From assembly GCA_024280295.1 (NCBI GenBank), contig JAJRQK010000029.1, positions 62,001-126,000 of the forward strand: a stretch of DNA of 64,000 nt, written 5' to 3'. Position numbers and translations under genes: made by a program. Origin of the DNA: Bacteroidota bacterium. GTDB taxonomy: Bacteria; Bacteroidota; Bacteroidia; Flavobacteriales_D; Crocinitomicaceae. Of this stretch, positions 51,162-61,142 are shown in pieces. The stretch's first letter is position 1. Each line of letters opens with the position of its first letter. A model generated the notes under the pieces. That model did no database searches. It was given only the letters and a program-made list of their open reading frames with translations, and had not been told where the DNA came from.

Positions 51162-51422
51162 ATGGCATACTACAAAACAATTGATGGAAAGAAGTACGAT
51201 GGAGAATTAATCGAATTGGCTGACAAACTTACATCTGGTGGTGGAGACGGTAGAATCTCTATGGCAGATGCTGAGAAAATTTATGAAGCAGTTAAAGATG
51301 GGAATTCTTATACTGATATTGAAAAAGATACAGTAGCTTACCTTCGTGATAACTACAAATGGACTGATGCTGCAGATGAGTGGTTCAGAGCAGAAGTTAG
51401 AAAATGGGCGTCTACTAAGTAG
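51162..51422 (+). CDS. Small acidic protein with an EF-hand-like stretch
   Basis: 86 residues, soluble and acidic. The stretch SGGGDGRISMADAEKIYEAV looks like half of an EF-hand loop (Asp-Gly-x-Ile and a later acidic residue), but the first two calcium ligands are missing, so binding is doubtful. DNYKWTDAADEWFRAEVRKW ends it. I do not recognise the family. A strong terminator 18 bases downstream and a 93-base upstream gap suggest a separate, perhaps well-expressed unit. Confidence 0.68.
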   Translation: MAYYKTIDGKKYDGELIELADKLTSGGGDGRISMADAEKIYEAVKDGNSYTDIEKDTVAYLRDNYKWTDAADEWFRAEVRKWASTK

Positions 51423-51437
51423 TCTGGAATTTATATG

Positions 51438-51467
51438 AAAGCCACCAACGATTAGTTGGTGGCTTTT
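51438..51467 (+). terminator. Strong terminator after the small acidic protein gene
   Basis: GCCACCAAC (51441-51449) pairs perfectly with GTTGGTGGC (51455-51463) with a 5-base loop, flanked by AAA upstream and TTTT downstream. Confidence 0.88.
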
Positions 51468-51857
51468 GCATTTGCTAGATTCTCAAATGTATTATTGTCG
51501 ATCCTCACTTCTGATAAGATTCGATCATAAATATATTCTTAACAATGGGGAGTATCATAAATGACTTAGCCACACTAAAACATTACTGACAACCAAATTC
51601 GAGAAATAGGGGCAGGAATTTCTTAATAACCTAAGTTGTCACCTACGTCTAATTTGAACCTTTTGCGGGAATCGCAATTAATGAATTTTAGGTTGCGTAT
51701 TTCAATAATCATGAACAACAATCTTACTTTAAATTTGTCATGAACTTTTGAAACTCTGATCGATTGAAATTTAGTAAAGAAGAAATGATGATAGAGTTGT
51801 TATCATTTCGCATAATGATAATCTCCCAATAATTTTGCTAAGTGCGATAAAGATATT
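51468..51857. other. 390-base intergenic region before the RND exporter gene
   Basis: No open frame with a usable ribosome binding site and no RNA gene were seen. The left 300 bases hold no clear structure. The right end contains the palindrome at 51800-51821 and an overlapping partial inverted repeat (GAAATGAT at 51782-51789 with ATCATTTC at 51802-51809), which points to a regulated promoter for the genes to the right. Confidence 0.6.
51800..51821. promoter_or_regulatory. 22-base palindrome, likely operator of the exporter-desaturase locus
   Basis: TTATCATT (51800-51807), TCGCAT, AATGATAA (51814-51821) is a perfect 8+8 inverted repeat with a 6-base spacer, 36 bases before the exporter ATG. 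A third related half-site, AATGAT at 51784-51789, lies just upstream. Size and position fit a dimeric repressor site; the regulator is not known. Confidence 0.5.
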
Positions 51858-54149
51858 ATGAATGAATCTAACCGCCTTCCAATTGAGAATAAATTCAAAA
51901 CATACAGCTGGTTCATATTAGGTGGACTTCTTTTCGTTTCGCTATTTCTGGGATTTCATTTAAAAAACACCAAAATGGATATGGATTTCGAGAAATTGTT
52001 TTCGAAAGGTGATCTAGAAACAGAATACTACAAAGAGTTTAGGGCGAAATTTAAATCCGAAAATGATTACTTGCTATTTATTATTGAAAGAAAGACGGGC
52101 ATTTTTGACAGTAATTTTTTAGCAAATGTCAATGCCTTTTCAAAAGATATTGAATCCATAAAAAATATAAAATCTGTTACGTCAATCACAAATCAAAATG
52201 AATTTCGGATTCTTCATGGTGGGACTCGATTTCATGTAGCATATATTGATTTTAAAGATTTTGACCCGCAACGCGACTCAACAAGAATATACCAAAAAGA
52301 GGAACTGGTTGGATCACTAGTTTCTAAAGACGCTAAGTCTTTGTGCGTGTTTATTAAGCATAGCGATTATTTATCGAAGTCGGATGCGAAAATTCTGATA
52401 AGGGAATTGAAAAGAATATCGCATAAACATTCATTTGAAAGTACAACGATTTTTGGTCGCTCGTATGCTCAAAACTATATCATGGAAAAGATGTCTTTTG
52501 AAATGATCTTATTCTTGATTTTGAGTGCGATTTTAATCATCCTATTCTTGTTCATCGCATTCAAGTCAGTTTGGGGAATACTAATTCCGCAGATTGTTGT
52601 CTTTGGATCGATGATTTGGTTATTGGGTGGAATGGGTTTATTTAATCAGCCAATCAGTATTCTTCTAACGGTAATGCCTTCGATCATGTTTGTAGTATCC
52701 ATGTCTGATGTGATTCATTTGGTTTCTCGTTATCTTGATGCATTGCGAGAAGAAGAGTCTAATTATTTGGCAATAATGACCTCTATAAAAGAGGTTGGAC
52801 TTGCGACGTTGCTGACATCAATCACCACAGCAATTGGCTTTTTCTCATTGTATCTCATTCCTATTGAACCTTTTCAGAAATTTGGAATTATCATGGGATG
52901 TGGAGTACTCATTGCGTTTGTTTTAACATTTAGCCTTCTTCCCATCTTATTCTACTGGTTTCCATGTCCAAAAAGAGTCAAACTGAAATATTCGACATCC
53001 TTGTGGACGAAGAAGCTAACTGTTTGGTTCGAAATTGTTGTGCGAAACCCGAAACAAATATTACTTATCGCTTTTGGAGTGTGCTTATTAAGTGTTCTTG
53101 GCATTGCAATGATGAGCTCTAATAATTATATGATGGACGACCTGCCACCTAATGATCCTTTGAAGAAAGATTTAAAATTCATCAGTGATCAGTATGGAGG
53201 ATCGAGGCCTTTTACAATGACCGTAGATATCTCAGAAACAGCTAAAGAAATTTGGGACTTAGAAGTTTTAAGAGAAATCGACACCATTCAAACTTATTTA
53301 GAAAAAAATCATGGTGTACATGTCCGATCATCCTTGATTACCGCGTTAAAGGTGATGAATAGAGGAGCAAATTCCGGTAATCCTCAATTCTATCAAATTC
53401 CTGCTTCACAAAAAAAAATGAATTCATTTAAGAAAATACTCAAAATTGTAAATCACGGGCTCCTGATCAGTGAATTTATGGATTCAGCCGAAAGAACTTT
53501 ACAAATCAACGGATTTCTTGATGATGTTGGGAATAATGAAATTTCTGCACGAAACATAGCATTGAATAGCTTCATTGAAGATCAGAATACGACAGGAATA
53601 AAATACACACTTACTGGAACCTCTCATCTAGTAGATAAGAATTTACGATCTCTTGTCCACAATATGCTCTTGGGGTTAATTATTTCGATTCTCATTATCG
53701 CATTCATTCTAGGATGTGTATTCATGTCCATTAAAATTGCACTCATTAGCTTAGTCCCAAATCTAATGCCCTTGATTATTTTAGCTGGAATCATGGGGTT
53801 CATGGGCATTGAGATTAAAATGTCCACTGGTATTGTGTTTAGCATCGCTTTTGGTATTGTAGTAGACGACACAATTCATTTTCTTGGGAAATTTAAGCAT
53901 GAGTTAAATAAAGGAAAACTAACCTTAGAGGCATTGCGAAGTGCGTATCTCACAACTGGTAAAGCAATGGTTTTAACAACATTAATTTTGTGTTCGGGGT
54001 TCTGTTTAATGATCTTCTCTTCGTTCATGGGAACTTTCTATTTGGGTTTTTTACTGACAACAGTTCTACTTATGGCTCTGATCTCTGACTTGACAGTTCT
54101 ACCAATCCTGTTATTACTTTTTTACAAATCAGATAAGAGGCGTCCATGA
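51858..54149 (+). CDS. RND-superfamily (MMPL/COG1033-type) exporter
   Basis: 763 residues built as two similar halves: a first helix at about 17-36, a periplasmic domain, five helices (about 210-370), then a helix near 400-420, a second periplasmic domain and the last helices (about 600-755). The segments VVSMSDVIHLVSRYLDAL and GIVVDDTIHFLGKFKHEL are the paired intramembrane Asp regions of single-gene RND exporters, which move lipids or other hydrophobic molecules by proton drive. The GNAT and desaturase genes that follow suggest a lipid substrate, which is inference. Confidence 0.85.
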   Translation: MNESNRLPIENKFKTYSWFILGGLLFVSLFLGFHLKNTKMDMDFEKLFSKGDLETEYYKEFRAKFKSENDYLLFIIERKTGIFDSNFLANVNAFSKDIESIKNIKSVTSITNQNEFRILHGGTRFHVAYIDFKDFDPQRDSTRIYQKEELVGSLVSKDAKSLCVFIKHSDYLSKSDAKILIRELKRISHKHSFESTTIFGRSYAQNYIMEKMSFEMILFLILSAILIILFLFIAFKSVWGILIPQIVVFGSMIWLLGGMGLFNQPISILLTVMPSIMFVVSMSDVIHLVSRYLDALREEESNYLAIMTSIKEVGLATLLTSITTAIGFFSLYLIPIEPFQKFGIIMGCGVLIAFVLTFSLLPILFYWFPCPKRVKLKYSTSLWTKKLTVWFEIVVRNPKQILLIAFGVCLLSVLGIAMMSSNNYMMDDLPPNDPLKKDLKFISDQYGGSRPFTMTVDISETAKEIWDLEVLREIDTIQTYLEKNHGVHVRSSLITALKVMNRGANSGNPQFYQIPASQKKMNSFKKILKIVNHGLLISEFMDSAERTLQINGFLDDVGNNEISARNIALNSFIEDQNTTGIKYTLTGTSHLVDKNLRSLVHNMLLGLIISILIIAFILGCVFMSIKIALISLVPNLMPLIILAGIMGFMGIEIKMSTGIVFSIAFGIVVDDTIHFLGKFKHELNKGKLTLEALRSAYLTTGKAMVLTTLILCSGFCLMIFSSFMGTFYLGFLLTTVLLMALISDLTVLPILLLLFYKSDKRRP

Positions 54150-54337
54150 ATAAGTTTTGCAGAAAAAAGCTAATCAATAAACGAAGCTTAAAACAAAAAA
54201 AATAGAAATACGGTCTATTCTCAATAAGATCACATTTTGTGAAAATCGCAACTGAAAATAAATAAATTGCGCAATCCAATTGTGAAAAACGGCCACATTA
54301 ATTCAAATTTGCTTTGAACATTTAACCTGATCACATA

Positions 54338-54937
54338 GTGAATATAATTCGAACAAAAAATCAAAAAAAGAGAGTGTTTGAAATTTTCGAACATTCTTTC
54401 GCTAATTCGCCAGGAATGAATTGGATGCTTCGGAATAGAAATTCTGAGAGAGGTAAAAGATGGATCATTAATCTAATGTTTCATGAGGGGATTAGTCAAA
54501 ATGGAGCTTTTATAACTTCAGACAACAATGGAGCAGTGTTATTCTTTCAAATCCAAAAGAAAGTATTTTCTCTATCCAATGTGGTCAGAACTCTTTACAT
54601 CTTGAGTTTTATTACTGGAATTAGAAGGGGTATTCGTGCGCTTCGCTATAAAAATATGGTAGCAAGAATTCGACCGAAAACTGGATGGTTAGGATTATTA
54701 GTTGCTACAGATCAAACGGTAAAGGGAAATGCTGCGGCTTTCGAAATAAAACGAGAAATGTTTCGAATTGCCGATGAAACTAACGAATGTATCTATGTGG
54801 AAACAACAGTTCCTCGTGTCCGATTGCTTTACAAAGCTGCTGGTTACATTGAGTATGCAGAAATGAAACACCCATACACGGATCTAATAATCTGGTTTTT
54901 TCGCAGAGATCCGTTCACTTATTCACGTAAAAAATAA
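54338..54937 (+). CDS. GNAT-like N-acyltransferase with a GTG start
   Basis: 199 residues. A stop lies five codons upstream with no ATG between, so the GTG at 54338 is the likely start; the first internal ATG is about 26 codons in and would cut the domain. The late segment ECIYVETTVPRVRLLYKAAGYIEYAEM follows the GNAT pattern (substrate loop, then LY.AAGY), and LGLLVATDQTVKGNAAA may be the acyl-CoA loop. Substrates could be an amine, an amino acid or a lipid headgroup. It precedes two desaturase genes, with 3 bases to the next one. Confidence 0.62.
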   Translation: MNIIRTKNQKKRVFEIFEHSFANSPGMNWMLRNRNSERGKRWIINLMFHEGISQNGAFITSDNNGAVLFFQIQKKVFSLSNVVRTLYILSFITGIRRGIRALRYKNMVARIRPKTGWLGLLVATDQTVKGNAAAFEIKREMFRIADETNECIYVETTVPRVRLLYKAAGYIEYAEMKHPYTDLIIWFFRRDPFTYSRKK

Positions 54938-54940
54938 CTT

Positions 54941-56032
54941 ATGAAAACACTACACTTTGCACCTGAAAAATCAGATTTCTTTAAGGAATTGAAATCTAAA
55001 ATTGATGCTCATTTTGAGCAGAACAATTTATCGGTCTTTGGTAATAGAAAAATGAAGATTAAACTAGTCATCATGTTCTGCATGTACCTAGTTGCTTATG
55101 CTGGGGTTTTCGTTTATGGTGAGAATGTAACTGCACTGTATTTTCTCTATGCTTTTCTTGGCGGTTGGTCTGTATTACTTGGCCTAAATATTGGTAATGA
55201 TGCTGCGCATGGTGCAATTTTTAAAAAGCCAGAGGCAAACAAACGACTCTTATTTATCTTTGAGATTCTTGGAACAAATTCCTATAATTGGGTCAATCGT
55301 CACTTAGGTGCGCATCACGTTTATCCGAATGTTATGAACTACGATTCTGACATTCAACAGACAAGTGTTGTGAAAATTTTCCCAAAGGATAAGCATCAGA
55401 AATATCATGTTTTCCAATTTATTTATATGCCATTGATTTACATGCTTTATACCCTTCGATGGATTGTTTACAGGGATTTCAAAGATGCTAAATCTAAGCG
55501 TATCGGTGTCTTCGATAATTCAAATTATCCTATGAGGGAAGTTCTGAAAATGATTCTTTTCAAGGTACTTTATTTAGCTCAAATGATCGCACTTCCTTCG
55601 CTATTACTTAATTTATCTTTGATGACTACAGTTTGGGCATTTCTTCTTCTTACCATCTTTGGTAGTTTGGTTATCACCCTAGTGCTACTCAGTACGCATG
55701 TTGGCGAGGATGCGAACTTCCCTGAGCCAAATGCTGAGAACACTCTTCCTCATAGCTGGTCTTACCACCAAGTTATTACTGCGGCAGATTTTGGAACAAA
55801 AAGTCATACGATTAATTTGCTGTTCGGAGGATTCAATCACCACGTTATTCATCACTTATTTCCTCATATCTGCCATATTCACTATGCTCAACTTACCCCA
55901 ATTCTAATTGAAACTGCTGAGAAGTATGGTCTTCAATACAGAAGTGAGAAATACTTGTTAGCCGCAGTTTTATCACATTTTAAATTATTGAAACGAAACG
56001 CAAAAAATTCATATCAAACAGCAACGAAATGA
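54941..56032 (+). CDS. Membrane fatty-acid desaturase (front-end/linoleoyl-CoA type)
   Basis: 363 residues with four to five membrane segments and the three histidine boxes of the di-iron desaturases: GNDAAHGA, HLGAHHVYPN (HxxxHH) and HHVIHHLFPHICH (HxxHH with preceding His). The first box shows only one of two His at its usual spacing (N-D-A-A-H), so it deserves a check. This spacing resembles bacterial acyl-CoA delta-6-like desaturases. It is immediately followed by a second desaturase gene overlapping by four bases. Confidence 0.82.
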   Translation: MKTLHFAPEKSDFFKELKSKIDAHFEQNNLSVFGNRKMKIKLVIMFCMYLVAYAGVFVYGENVTALYFLYAFLGGWSVLLGLNIGNDAAHGAIFKKPEANKRLLFIFEILGTNSYNWVNRHLGAHHVYPNVMNYDSDIQQTSVVKIFPKDKHQKYHVFQFIYMPLIYMLYTLRWIVYRDFKDAKSKRIGVFDNSNYPMREVLKMILFKVLYLAQMIALPSLLLNLSLMTTVWAFLLLTIFGSLVITLVLLSTHVGEDANFPEPNAENTLPHSWSYHQVITAADFGTKSHTINLLFGGFNHHVIHHLFPHICHIHYAQLTPILIETAEKYGLQYRSEKYLLAAVLSHFKLLKRNAKNSYQTATK

Positions 56033-57000
56033 AATCAGATATAACATTAATCTCAGAGACAATTAGTTACGCTAGGGAAAAGCGAAGCATAAGTTGGTTT
56101 CACACCTTGTCGACTTTAGCTCTTGTTATAGCAAGTCTAACACTTACACTCCTCAGTATTCACTGGGGTATTAAACTTATCGCAAGTATTTTCAGCGGAT
56201 TAGTTCTAGTACGAATGTTTGTGATCTATCACGATTATCTACACGAGTCTATCCTACAACGATCGAAAGTTGCGAATGTGCTCTTTACTCTGTTTGGCTA
56301 TTATATGCTTACTCCAAAGACCATTTGGCGTCGTTCTCATAACTACCACCACGCGAATAATTCTAAATTATTCAAGTCTGGAATTGGATCATACCCTGTT
56401 TATACCAAGAGCAGATTCGAGAAACTATCTCTCAAAAAACAATCACAATATATGTTTGTACGTCACCCATTGGTGATTCTCTTTGGATACTTTTTTACAT
56501 TCTTGTATGGAATGTGCATTCAGTCCTTGGTAAAAAGCTTCGCTAAACATTTGGATTCACTTGTAGCATTGCTTTTTCATTTCACGCTACACGCCTTAAT
56601 TTTTATTCTATATGGATGGGAAGTTTCAGTTTGGTTTAGTTTCATACCTCACTTTATTTCTGGTGCTCTCGGAGCGTATTTATTCTACGTGCAACATAAT
56701 TTTCCTGGTGTTCGTTATGAAGTAGATCAAAATTGGACGTATGAAGGTGCTGCTTTAGAAGCATCAAGTTTCTTAAAAACAAGCCAATTTATGAATTGGG
56801 TATCAGCAAATATTGGACATCATCATATTCATCATCTGAATGCGAGAATTCCATTTTACCGTTTACCTGAGATTATGAAAAACATTGAATCCCTAAAGAA
56901 TCCGAAAGTTACTACGCTTAAAATTAAGGATATAAAAGCTTGTTTACGACTGAAGGTTTGGGACACTGACCTAAATATGATGGTCAACGTATCAAAATAA
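56029..57000 (+). CDS. Second membrane fatty-acid desaturase (delta-12/omega-6-like)
   Basis: 323 residues with several membrane segments. Its histidine boxes are YHDYLHESI (HxxxH), HNYHHANN (HxxHH) and GHHHIHHLNARIP (HxxHH), typical of the DesA/omega-6 group, which differs from its neighbour. It is joined to the first desaturase gene by ATGA. Both would act at the inner membrane with an electron donor such as ferredoxin or cytochrome b5, and no donor gene is seen nearby. The stop lies nine bases from the end of a convergent gene. Confidence 0.85.
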   Translation: MKSDITLISETISYAREKRSISWFHTLSTLALVIASLTLTLLSIHWGIKLIASIFSGLVLVRMFVIYHDYLHESILQRSKVANVLFTLFGYYMLTPKTIWRRSHNYHHANNSKLFKSGIGSYPVYTKSRFEKLSLKKQSQYMFVRHPLVILFGYFFTFLYGMCIQSLVKSFAKHLDSLVALLFHFTLHALIFILYGWEVSVWFSFIPHFISGALGAYLFYVQHNFPGVRYEVDQNWTYEGAALEASSFLKTSQFMNWVSANIGHHHIHHLNARIPFYRLPEIMKNIESLKNPKVTTLKIKDIKACLRLKVWDTDLNMMVNVSK

Positions 57001-57009
57001 TAAATGAAT

Positions 57010-57912
57010 CTAATTAGAATGTGGACGTGAAGATTTAGGAACTCGAAAGCGTATCTTAGTTATTAAATGATTTATCATGGCTGTTTGATCAACCGCGTTC
57101 ATGTCATAATAATCCACTCGACGTTCTCTTAATTGCCAATCAATATCAAGCTCACAATAGATACGAACTGGAATGGATGCTAAATATTTAGCGTTTCCAC
57201 CATCTTTCTCACCCTTAGAGTACATGGAATAATGAACATAGACTTTATCGAAATCTTCTGGAGGTCCACCAAATTGATAATTCAATTTCTGAATATAATC
57301 CTGAGCTTCATTCATTGCAGGTTGTGAGAAGTTCTTGTTAATTGTTCTTTCAAAAGAGTGGTAAAGCCTTGCGAAATCTAAGGGAGGATCAACACCATAA
57401 ACGGCAATTGGTTTAACAGTTGTAATTGAGTCACTTTCATATGCCATTTCAGTATATCGAATGGCATTCATTCCTCCTAGAGAGAATCCCCCGAAAACAA
57501 TTTTATCCAATGGAGGAGTGTATTTATCTACCACACTTCTAAATGTTTCATTTAAAAATGACAGTGAAACATCATCCAAACAGAGGTTGTAGTTTATTGA
57601 TGGAATGATAATTAGCAAGTTTTGAGAATAGGCAAGTTTTATAAGTTCAATAGTGTGATTGATTACATTCTCCGCTGTTTGCCATGTTGGAGGGAATAGA
57701 ACGAGTGTACCTTGAATACTATCTTTTGGAGATAGGGCATAATAGAACAGATCAGTGGATCCTTCATCATTTACATAAATGTATGTGGTATCAATTATAT
57801 TTATCGAAATTTTGTCCAGATTATTCAAGTACAACTCCTCTAAGTTGATAGTATTTTGCGTGTTTCCAGTAAAAGGAAAAGCAATAAGAAGAAAAATTAA
57901 TAAGTTTTTCAT
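57010..57912 (-). CDS. Secreted alpha/beta hydrolase-like protein
   Basis: 300 residues from the ATG at 57912, which gives a signal peptide (KNLLIFLLIAFPFTGNTQ); the frame is open for seven more codons. VFGGFSLGGMNAIRY is a nucleophile elbow (GxSxG). The later acid and base are less sure: Asp in CELDIDWQLRER and His in MINHLITKIRF. It is probably an exported esterase or peptidase-like hydrolase. It converges on the desaturase genes and is divergent from hisS. Confidence 0.65.
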   Translation of the reverse strand: MKNLLIFLLIAFPFTGNTQNTINLEELYLNNLDKISINIIDTTYIYVNDEGSTDLFYYALSPKDSIQGTLVLFPPTWQTAENVINHTIELIKLAYSQNLLIIIPSINYNLCLDDVSLSFLNETFRSVVDKYTPPLDKIVFGGFSLGGMNAIRYTEMAYESDSITTVKPIAVYGVDPPLDFARLYHSFERTINKNFSQPAMNEAQDYIQKLNYQFGGPPEDFDKVYVHYSMYSKGEKDGGNAKYLASIPVRIYCELDIDWQLRERRVDYYDMNAVDQTAMINHLITKIRFRVPKSSRPHSN

Positions 57913-58236: not shown

Positions 58237-59661
58237 ATGGCCCAAAAACCGTCTACACCAAAAGGAACAAGAGATTTCTTGCCAGCAGAAGTAGCGAAAC
58301 GAAATTATATATTCAATACGATTAAAGCATCGTTTGAAACTTACGGGTTTTCACCTATTGAGACTCCATCCTTTGAACTTTCATCTACTTTGATGGGGAA
58401 ATATGGTGAAGAAGGGGATAAGTTGATCTTCAAAATATTGAAATCTGGGAATTACTTATACGAGAAGAAGAATATTGAAATTCCATCTTCAATGAATGAA
58501 CTTGTTAAAACATCATTCGATAGACTTAGTTCTGATGAGAAGAAGGAACTAAATAAATTCACTTCTGATATTTCATCTAAAGCACTTCGCTATGATCTTA
58601 CGGTTCCCTTTGCACGATTTGTTGTACAACACCAAAATGAACTTGCTTTTCCATTCAAACGCTATCAAATTCAACCAGTATGGAGAGCAGATCGACCACA
58701 AAAAGGTCGTTATCAAGAATTTTATCAGTGTGATGCAGATGTTGTGGGAAGTGATTCACTTATCTATGAAGTGGATTTTGTTTTGCTATTTGATGAGGTG
58801 CTATCAAACCTAAACATTCCGAATTTTACTGTGAAAATCAATAACCGAAAAGTACTTTCAGGAATTGCTGAAGTATGTGGTGAAGAGGATAAACTGATTT
58901 CGATAACTGTAGCAATTGATAAACTTGACAAAATAGGAGTTGATGGTGTAACTAAAGAGTTGCTTGAAAAAGGGATTTCTCAAGCTGCAATGAGTAAAAT
59001 TGCTCCACTTTTTGAAATTACAGGAGATACTAGAAGTCGATTGGCTCAGATGAGAGAATATCTTACCGGAAGTGAAATTGGTATTAATGGTATTGATGAG
59101 CTTGAATATATTTTAGATCAAGTTGATGAATTGGGAGTGAAAAAGGCAAATGTTGAGTTTGATGTTACACTCGCGCGAGGATTAAATTACTACACAGGAG
59201 CAATCTTCGAAGTTGTGGCAGATGATGTAAGTATTGGCAGTATTTGTGGGGGTGGACGTTATGATGATCTTACCGGCATCTTTGGAATGAAAGACGTCTC
59301 AGGTGTTGGGATTTCATTTGGAGCTGATCGTATTTATGATGTCCTCGAAGAATTGAAATTATTTCCAACCTCTGTTGATAATCGCCTCGAAGTATTGTTT
59401 GTTAACTTTGGTGAGCAAGAGCAAAAACAGTGTGTTAAACATGTGAAAGCGTTGCGAGAAGCTGGAATATCATCAGAAGTTTATCCGAAATCAGCTAAAA
59501 TGCAAAAGCAAATGAAATATGCTAATGCAAGAGGGGTGAAGTATGTTGCTATGTTAGGAGCAAACGAAATTGAATCAGGCAAAATTAAGCTTAAAAACAT
59601 GGATTCTGGTGAGCAGCAATCGTTATCTATTCAAGAAATTATTGATGCAATTAAACATTGA
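58237..59661 (+). CDS. hisS: Histidine--tRNA ligase
   Basis: 474 residues. Class II motifs: PKGTRDFLPAEV at the start, RYDLTVPFARFV, the FKRYQIQPVWRADRPQKGRYQEFYQCD stretch of motif 2, and the histidine-specific LARGLNYYTGAIFEV with GGRYDDL. The C-terminal anticodon-binding domain (EVLFVNFGEQEQ onward) is present. An insert after KILKSGNYLYEKK lengthens it relative to E. coli, as in other Bacteroidota. Its stop lies five bases before the hutH ATG. Confidence 0.97.
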   Translation: MAQKPSTPKGTRDFLPAEVAKRNYIFNTIKASFETYGFSPIETPSFELSSTLMGKYGEEGDKLIFKILKSGNYLYEKKNIEIPSSMNELVKTSFDRLSSDEKKELNKFTSDISSKALRYDLTVPFARFVVQHQNELAFPFKRYQIQPVWRADRPQKGRYQEFYQCDADVVGSDSLIYEVDFVLLFDEVLSNLNIPNFTVKINNRKVLSGIAEVCGEEDKLISITVAIDKLDKIGVDGVTKELLEKGISQAAMSKIAPLFEITGDTRSRLAQMREYLTGSEIGINGIDELEYILDQVDELGVKKANVEFDVTLARGLNYYTGAIFEVVADDVSIGSICGGGRYDDLTGIFGMKDVSGVGISFGADRIYDVLEELKLFPTSVDNRLEVLFVNFGEQEQKQCVKHVKALREAGISSEVYPKSAKMQKQMKYANARGVKYVAMLGANEIESGKIKLKNMDSGEQQSLSIQEIIDAIKH

Positions 59662-59666
59662 TCGAG

Positions 59667-61142
59667 ATGTACACAATTGACACTAAAAATATAACTCCGA
59701 GTGAACTTGAAGAACTTATATCTTCTGGAAAAAAATTACAATTAAGTGCTGAAACGGAGGCAAAGATTAATAAGTGCAGGGAATACTTAGATGATAAAGT
59801 CAGTCAAGCAGGCAAATTAATTTATGGTGTGAATACTGGCTTTGGATCTTTATGTAATACAGCTATTTCTTCCAAAGACTTAGGGAAGTTACAACGAAAT
59901 CTTGTTGTTTCTCATGCATGTGGAGCAGGTGAGGAAGTTCCGGAAGAGATTGTTAAGCGAATGTTGATATTGAAAGTTATTGGACTATCACATGGTCATT
60001 CAGGATCACAATTAGCGACAATTGAACGACTTATTTTCTTCTACAATAATGATATCACACCAGTTATCTATCAGCAAGGGAGTTTAGGTGCTTCGGGTGA
60101 TTTAGCTCCTTTAGCACACATGTCTTTACCACTCATTGGTGAAGGTGAAGTCGATTTGGGTAACGAACGAATTTCAGGTAAAGAACTTCTTTCACGTTAC
60201 AACCTTGAACCAATTGAACTTCGATCAAAAGAAGGATTAGCATTACTGAATGGAACTCAATTTATGAGTGCGTATGCTACTTATTGTTTGGCACATGGCT
60301 TTAAATTATGGAATCAATTTAATAAAATCGCTGCATTATCACTAGATGCTTATGATGGTAGAATTAACCCATTTCAAGCAAATGTGAACGAAATTAGAAA
60401 TCAATCGGGGCAAATATTAACTGCGGAAATTATGCGATCCTTACTTGAAGGAAGTGAAATGATTTCGCGTGACAAAGAACATGTTCAAGACCCATACTCG
60501 TTTAGGTGCATTCCTCAGGTGCATGGCGCATCATTTGATTCGCTTATTCATTGTGAAATGGTAATTGATAGAGAAATTAACGCCGTTACGGATAATCCTA
60601 CTGTGTTTCCTGACGATGATGATGTAGTTTCTGCGGGAAATTTCCATGGACAACCTTTGGCATTGATTCTAGATTTTATGGCAATCGCAATTGCTGAATT
60701 GGGGAGTATTTCTGAACGCCGTGTCTATAAATTAATTGGAGGGACTCGTGGATTACCTGCATTTCTTGTAGCTGAACCAGGACTAAATTCAGGATTTATG
60801 ATTCCTCAGTACACAGCTGCTTCAATTGTAAGTCAAAGTAAACAACTTTGCATGCCAGCTTCAGTGGATACGATTGATTCGAGTAATGGACAGGAAGATC
60901 ATGTAAGTATGGGGGCAAATGCAGCAACTAAATTGTATCGTATAATCCAGAACACCTATTCAATTCAAGGGATAGAATTAATGAATGGAGCACAGGCAAT
61001 GGATTTTCGTAAAGAAAAAAGTTCAGTAAGTATTGAGCAATTAAGAACATCATATCGAGAGCATGTCCCTTACTTAAAAGAAGATAGGTATTTACATCCT
61101 TTAATCGCTGACAGCGTGAAGTTTGTAAAATCAATAATGTAA
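59667..61142 (+). CDS. hutH: Histidine ammonia-lyase
   Basis: 491 residues from the ATG at 59667; an in-frame TTG lies nine bases earlier but overlaps the hisS stop and is less likely. The MIO cofactor site GSLGASGDLAPLAH is intact, with YGVNTGFG near the start and the SSNGQEDHVSMG region late. It converts histidine to urocanate and ammonia. No hutU, hutI or hutG gene is in the window. Other aromatic ammonia-lyase or aminomutase activities share the fold but are less likely given HutH-like length and the hisS neighbour. Confidence 0.9.
   Translation: MYTIDTKNITPSELEELISSGKKLQLSAETEAKINKCREYLDDKVSQAGKLIYGVNTGFGSLCNTAISSKDLGKLQRNLVVSHACGAGEEVPEEIVKRMLILKVIGLSHGHSGSQLATIERLIFFYNNDITPVIYQQGSLGASGDLAPLAHMSLPLIGEGEVDLGNERISGKELLSRYNLEPIELRSKEGLALLNGTQFMSAYATYCLAHGFKLWNQFNKIAALSLDAYDGRINPFQANVNEIRNQSGQILTAEIMRSLLEGSEMISRDKEHVQDPYSFRCIPQVHGASFDSLIHCEMVIDREINAVTDNPTVFPDDDDVVSAGNFHGQPLALILDFMAIAIAELGSISERRVYKLIGGTRGLPAFLVAEPGLNSGFMIPQYTAASIVSQSKQLCMPASVDTIDSSNGQEDHVSMGANAATKLYRIIQNTYSIQGIELMNGAQAMDFRKEKSSVSIEQLRTSYREHVPYLKEDRYLHPLIADSVKFVKSIM

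Follow-up and report, generated by a model that had tools for sequence, protein, structure and literature searches.

Aminolipid pathways (OlsB/OlsA, OlsF, GlsB and the hydroxylase OlsE) follow the idea that a GNAT N-acyltransferase acts and an oxidation comes after it. An arrangement that may be comparable is found in a Bacteroidota bacterium of the family Crocinitomicaceae, whose draft assembly of 3.46 Mb (G000) we analysed. The locus lies in a stretch of 64,000 nucleotides (assembly GCA_024280295.1, contig JAJRQK010000029.1, positions 62,001 to 126,000 of the forward strand), hereafter the window, and consists of a gene for a GNAT-fold protein followed by genes for two membrane di-iron desaturases, here termed DesA and DesB. 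This GNAT-DesA-DesB triad recurs, with order and strand kept, on five other Flavobacteriales contigs, and we tentatively read it as a lipid-tailoring cassette that couples N-acylation with chain modification. The four genes named in the initial annotation, an RND exporter and the three members of the triad, are all confirmed (Table 1).

Comparison with described enzymes and pathways

In structure, the closest described relative of the window GNAT is puromycin N-acetyltransferase (PAC; 7k09/7k0a), and the whole fold is common to both. The AlphaFold model of the GNAT (pLDDT 88.6) has 7k09 as its best solved-structure match (Foldseek E 1.6e-9), with a Z-score of 21.8 and 2.5 A over 190 residues; in sequence, the two proteins are 15% identical and linked by a weak profile match (E 0.086). 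The GNAT label given initially therefore holds through the fold of a predicted structure and not through Pfam, which gave no match at E<=1. The GTG start agrees with the N-termini of homologs. Unlike PAC, the window GNAT adjoins lipid enzymes and bears no sign of a resistance role. FeeM, an N-acyl amino acid synthase, also appeared in the fold list, at a Z-score of 12.7 that was level with many other GNATs, so the structure does not favour a likeness to FeeM.

The window GNAT departs from the pattern Q/R-x-x-G-x-G/A, which we take to be the acyl-coenzyme A (CoA) pyrophosphate loop of GNATs. Its loop reads QTVKGNAAA, and the PAC loop HQGKGLG aligns with QTVKGNA. None of the 13 members of the GNAT clade described below matches the pattern, and the GNATs of two triads (L059 and L060) have a loop without any glycine. 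Among the unlinked GNAT relatives, 11 of 34 match and 23 fail; we do not count the contrast between 0/16 for clade-or-linked GNATs and 11/34 for the rest as proof, since it is confounded by relatedness. The column of Tyr165, presumably the general-acid tyrosine of GNATs, holds Tyr in all 13 clade rows, and H178, P179, Y180 and D182 are invariant across seven aligned GNAT rows. Judged from the alignments, loss of the loop together with the kept tyrosine would fit either an acyltransferase with another donor or a non-catalytic binding partner.

DesA has the PF00487 domain (FA_desaturase; 96.1 bits, cut-off 29.7) and the general box layout of front-end or linoleoyl-CoA-type desaturases. These presumably carry Gln in box 3 (QxxHH) and, though not universally, a fused N-terminal cytochrome b5. 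DesA differs from them in that box 3 is of the HxxHH subtype, with His301 in place of Gln (H301-V-I-H304-H305), in that PF00487 was the sole Pfam match at E<=1, with no cytochrome b5 domain, and in that its whole clade is GNAT-adjacent. The first position of box 3 is His in all ten GNAT-linked DesA rows and Gln in 22 of the 42 rows overall. Box 2 reads H121-L-G-A-H125-H126, and box 1 reads N86-D-A-A-H90 instead of HDAAH, which leaves the histidine set of the three boxes incomplete. The AlphaFold model of DesA is poor (pLDDT 46.1), and a search with DesA alone against solved-structure sequences gave no match at E<=1.

DesB (PF00487, 82 bits against the same cut-off) aligns over nearly its full length with the Bacillus acyl-lipid desaturase DesA/Des (NF052548, Delta5), its nearest curated family; the genomic partners of the two differ. 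The score of 174.7 bits compares with a cut-off of 500, so the Delta5 regiochemistry is not transferable to DesB. Its boxes read H68-D-Y-L-H72, H104-N-Y-H107-H108 and H265-H266-I-H268-H269, and the ten box columns tested are His in all 38 aligned rows. At E<=1, a DesB profile matched none of the sequences with solved structures. The box alignment thus bears out the original remark that the two desaturases are of unlike histidine-box type, with box 1 of DesA corrected to NDAAH.

With regard to the aminolipid pathways, OlsB and GlsB match an acetyltransferase family of Pfam, which we take to be PF13444, and in this they differ from the window GNAT. The PF04116 enzyme that partners a related GNAT (L147) scores 70.7 bits against the OlsE model, whose cut-off is 475. 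An aminolipid review (PMC11631085) counts N-acyl amino acid synthases of the FeeM type among the GNATs and notes that they resemble aminolipid enzymes to some degree; words beginning with desatur- or unsaturat- never occur in it. Among titles and abstract openings of the open-access literature on polyunsaturated fatty acids, sphingolipids, lipid A, aminolipids and desaturases, we found no described GNAT-desaturase set. Overall, all parts of the locus belong to known families, and it is their combination and modular spread that look new.

Table 1. Genes of the locus and the Asn86 codon of DesA, in window coordinates
Feature	Position	Strand	Length	Remarks
RND, MMPL-type	51858-54149	+	763 aa	Pfam MMPL; adjacent, judged outside the module
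GNAT-fold, puromycin-acetyltransferase-like	54338-54937	+	199 aa	GTG start; constant module member
DesA, membrane di-iron fatty-acid desaturase	54941-56032	+	363 aa	Box 3 of HxxHH subtype
DesA Asn86 codon	55196-55198	+		AAT; box-1 His position
DesB, membrane di-iron desaturase	56029-57000	+	323 aa	Nearest curated family NF052548, below cut-off

Recurrence of the GNAT beside membrane di-iron enzymes

The five other triads are L031 (also L061; genome G047), L032 (also L062; G087), L033 (also L063; G135), in which the contig end cuts DesB, L059 and L060. A contig scan returned 50 pattern matches, from which six loci were confirmed, five with the triad and one (L064) with the GNAT alone. The closest named carriers of the triad genes are metagenome-assembled genomes of Flavobacteriales and Cryomorphaceae. 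In the triads, identity to the window proteins is 45-51% for the GNAT, 57-64% for DesA and 47-52% for DesB (three triads). In the window, GNAT and DesA are 3 bp apart and DesB begins 4 bp before the end of DesA; across all six triads, the GNAT/DesA junction ranges from an 11-bp overlap to a 5-bp gap, taking for L031 the ATG 13 codons inside its longest frame. The genes flanking the triads differ, save those of L059 and L060, which are alike. Since the three genes form a conserved unit, joint lipid work of the GNAT and the two desaturases is likely.

To place the GNAT in a wider context, we searched the order with the single protein (E<=0.001) and the class with a profile (E<=1e-12), which gave matches in 24 of 150 and 24 of 395 genomes, respectively, the genome of the window included. 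The neighbourhood survey took in L059, L060 and all but two of the 48 distinct matches; for those two, G527 and G258 (L144 and L145), only 1.5-kb flanks were covered. The profiles used to scan the neighbourhoods derived in part from the scanned loci themselves. The window GNAT fell in a clade of ten rows (support 100/99) in a first tree, from which the cut-short L155 was dropped, and of 13 rows (100/100) in a second, from which the long branches L050, L051 and L166 were also dropped. A di-iron enzyme lies within 5 kb in eight of the ten clade members found by GNAT similarity (seven of nine without the window), against a chance expectation of about 2.1% per locus, a figure that takes its gene density from one genome (seven PF00487/PF04116 matches in 3.46 Mb) and ignores relatedness between rows. 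The adjacency of the GNAT and di-iron enzymes is above chance.

The partners vary within the clade. Eleven of the 13 GNATs stand beside a membrane di-iron enzyme: six beside DesA and DesB, two beside DesA (L274 and L275), one beside DesB (L278), one beside a PF04116 enzyme (L147) and one beside both DesA and a PF04116 enzyme (L148, in the order GNAT-DesA-PF04116). As the partners differ among rows, the GNAT is the constant member and the membrane enzyme the variable one. The initial annotation had the two desaturases acting perhaps in series. In genome G545, however, one contig carries a GNAT-DesA pair (L275) and a different one carries a further GNAT immediately ahead of DesB (L278); this split, with a GNAT for each, argues against an obligatory DesA/DesB pair. 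In G469, the DesB ortholog lies away from the GNAT. Outside the clade, two of the four rows of another GNAT clade (L038 and L151) face a PF04116-DesA pair and L165 has DesA-GNAT, and many further distant GNATs have no di-iron neighbour. The survey thus upholds the association between GNAT and desaturase and finds it wider than initially described.

Two further observations concern these GNATs. A radical SAM gene adjoins a related GNAT at L038:7711-11253, L151:6393-9933 and L042:3614-5307; at the first two, genes for a PF04116-type hydroxylase and a DesA-like protein stand opposite this GNAT, and at the third (L042) the contig ends. PF04055 was found in the radical SAM proteins of L038 and L151, and among the best 25 NCBIfam rows of each none attained its cut-off. 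At L148:4817-7940 and L278:1-1481, from two distantly related genomes, the gene for a clade GNAT has a panB-like gene, judged by eye, in its vicinity.

The desaturases of the triads can be told apart from their generic relatives. A DesA profile passed E<=1e-70 in 93 of 345 genomes of the class, scoring 690.7 bits in the genome of the window, 449.0 in G298, 337.4 in G460 and at most 290.0 in the rest; G298 and G460, the sole matches above 290.0 bits besides the window's own, are both GNAT-adjacent. In the genus, just three of 34 genomes (the one analysed here, G540 and G545) have a cassette-type DesA, so the module is patchy; the others score at most 282.1, and the two new cassette-type genes both adjoin a GNAT. 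The cassette DesA proteins form one clade (100/99) of nine rows, all nine GNAT-adjacent, and those of L038, L151 and L165 fall outside it. No GNAT was found in 27 generic DesA loci with 1.5-kb flanks, and the genome of the window itself has two generic relatives, 30 and 32% identical to DesA. Rows of 330 aa or less were dropped from the first DesA tree; later trees comprised 22 DesA and 20 DesB rows, chosen from earlier trees with L274, L275 and L278 added and the distant GNAT-linked DesA of L165 dropped. In a congener, a DesA-like gene interrupted by three stop codons in frame (G149:C31:210610-211626) is probably a pseudogene of the generic type.

Similarly, the cassette DesB proteins group together in a moderately supported clade (94/94 for six rows, 86/91 for seven), and DesB relatives occur in 70 of 395 genomes of the class, that of the window included. 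We compared 32 non-cassette DesB loci from order and class, namely L105-L107 and the 29 best of the class search (L167-L195). None has a GNAT, and in 26 the gene for a lipid-A acyltransferase of the LpxL/HtrB type lies no more than 400 bp away in the same orientation; PF03279 was confirmed for two of these neighbours that were checked. This suggests that, outside the cassette, DesB desaturation is linked to lipid A or to a similar lipid of the envelope.

Proposed function and its alternatives

Among the readings that we weighed, lipid tailoring is favoured, followed by phospholipid desaturation with a passenger GNAT and then by a non-catalytic GNAT partner. In a lipid-tailoring cassette, the GNAT-fold protein would most likely N-acylate an amine-bearing molecule, and the partner di-iron membrane enzymes would modify the acyl chain with O2 and reducing power. 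DesA and DesB would put double bonds at different positions, the PF04116 hydroxylase of some relatives would add a hydroxyl, and an unsaturated membrane lipid of the N-acyl type would result. We infer that the GNAT has N-acyltransferase activity and takes acyl-acyl carrier protein (acyl-ACP), not acyl-CoA, as donor, and, on the same footing, that its amine product is the substrate of the desaturases and that the double-bond positions are as proposed. The suggestion that this is a locus for an unusual unsaturated lipid is accordingly kept for the conserved unit of GNAT and two desaturases, for which no described match was found, and given up for the RND gene.

A bolder form of this proposal, which we regard as doubtful, extends to the whole clade. 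FeeM and LuxI-type enzymes use acyl-ACP. Possibly drawing on acyl-ACP in the same way, a PAC-fold GNAT clade that has lost the classical CoA loop might be the dedicated partner of three kinds of di-iron enzyme, making N-acyl lipids that are then desaturated or hydroxylated; the products would be undescribed, chain-tailored amine lipids of Bacteroidota.

Several points weigh against lipid tailoring. Substrate and product are predicted from gene context, fold and families, and a shared neighbourhood is no proof of a shared substrate. Two clade members, L034 and L149, have no di-iron neighbour, and three of the others, L274 (G540), L275 and L278 (both G545), came from desaturase searches and lend no unbiased support to the count made from the GNAT side. 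Five genomes (G540, G298, G460, G139 and G331) have a GNAT and a DesA-type gene with no DesB ortholog at E<=1e-60, which makes DesB optional. The loss of the loop could mean a non-catalytic GNAT, and it is not specific to the module, as most unlinked relatives lack the pattern too. The genome of the window also holds, away from the module, a pair of neighbouring acyltransferase genes that read as glsB-glsA (L253:572-2316, contig C30), so the common aminolipids probably come from elsewhere; the PF19576 gene of this pair was found in seven of the eight carriers searched, this genome included, with the neighbouring acyltransferase recognised by eye. Finally, Asn86 may leave the window DesA weakened or inactive in its own genome.

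The alternative that survives best, though we consider it improbable, is a plain adaptation of membrane fluidity to cold. DesA and DesB would then have phospholipids as their substrates, and the GNAT gene would be co-transcribed with them without any relation in function. It draws on the Delta5 family nearest to DesB, since the Bacillus enzyme desaturates membrane phospholipids in the cold according to the accessible part of one report (PMC4525379), and on the envelope-lipid contexts of the 26 non-cassette DesB loci. However, the GNAT is found with DesA, with DesB and with PF04116 enzymes independently of one another and in new surroundings, and this recurrence disfavours an unrelated passenger.

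Somewhat less probable, and compatible with any other reading, is that the locus is decaying in this organism, with DesA short of an iron ligand and the cassette inactive or half-active. Histidine boxes coordinate the di-iron centre, as stated in the accessible part of a published account (PMC9825965), and column 86 is His in the other 41 of the 42 aligned DesA rows, as well as in the congeners L274 and L275. Asn86 may stem from a point change, from an exchange of ligand that the enzyme tolerates or from a mistake in the assembly. Against decay, DesA has neither stop nor frameshift, its terminal branches in the trees (0.24 and 0.23) are not long, and one wrong base in a draft assembly would give the same picture.

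More doubtful still is a GNAT that partners the di-iron enzymes in a non-catalytic or regulatory capacity, for instance as an adaptor that binds the acyl donor or as a stabiliser. Such a role would agree with the motif missing throughout the clade, with the glycine-free loops of L059 and L060 and with one GNAT clade accompanying enzymes of three different kinds, but the kept Tyr165 and the four invariant residues look as they would in a working active site.

The adjacent RND gene, other neighbours and wider meaning

The initial annotation had proposed production and export of the lipid, with the RND protein as exporter. The protein has an MMPL domain (PF03176, 115.9 bits, cut-off 20.5) and falls below the cut-offs of HAE3 (TIGR00921, 191.3 against 351.9 bits) and HpnN (TIGR03480, 122.4 against 751.85 bits). 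Homologs (E<=1e-60) occur in 90 of the 150 genomes of the order, that of the window included, which has a second copy, 51% identical, on contig C65. A profile scan of 29 narrow (L076-L104, about 1.5-kb flanks) and 11 wide (L108-L118) RND neighbourhoods, from genomes partly common to both sets, found no GNAT, desaturase or PF04116 gene besides those of the window. Likewise, the contigs of the five other triads show no RND homolog within flanks of limited length: about 8 kb or more per side for L031/L061 and L059, 0.6 kb upstream for L060, and 1.7 and 2.2 kb upstream for L032/L062 and L033/L063, which are short contigs.

The link to the exporter fails because no RND gene stands by the other triads within these flanks and none of the inspected RND homologs stands beside these genes; the exporter is therefore rejected as a module member, and the RND gene is most likely a mere neighbour. 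That the gene is found apart from the desaturases in relatives is an outcome that the initial annotation had itself set against its proposal, and the export part of that proposal is not supported. Export through this protein is thus very improbable, even if only 188 bp separate its gene from that of the GNAT, which follows on the same strand, and the copy on C65 could have left the window copy free to be recruited. At L274:1177-7685 in G540, GNAT-DesA is preceded at a distance of about 0.9 kb by an RND efflux operon of the TetR/OMP/MFP/AcrB type, identified by eye; its RND class differs from that of the window protein.

Scans for regulatory signals gave no boundary between the RND and GNAT genes. 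The pattern that we assume for Flavobacterium-type promoters had no match between them, and five in the window against 5.54 expected. A sigma-70 scan of 51400-57300 gave 25 sites against 23.9 expected, near chance, and the same region had six terminator-like sites against 2.9 expected, none of them inside the RND-GNAT gap. Carriage of the triad by plasmid or phage was dropped, as its DNA had no match among plasmid sequences and the GNAT none among phage sequences; one distant GNAT relative (25% identity) is borne on a Chryseobacterium plasmid. Elsewhere in the window, an 86-aa open reading frame at 51162-51422, between a DinB-like gene and the RND gene, was absent from the triad and GNAT loci compared, no wider search having been made. 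A histidine/aromatic ammonia-lyase-like gene (59658-61142), with an ASG motif read by eye, directly follows hisS.

If the lipid-tailoring reading is true, the locus would be a compact, portable gene set for an unusual unsaturated amine lipid, and a GNAT without the CoA loop beside a di-iron enzyme would serve as a genomic marker that predicts such lipids. Such a case would further show that a GNAT clade serving several membrane oxidases can switch to another acyl donor or take on another role.

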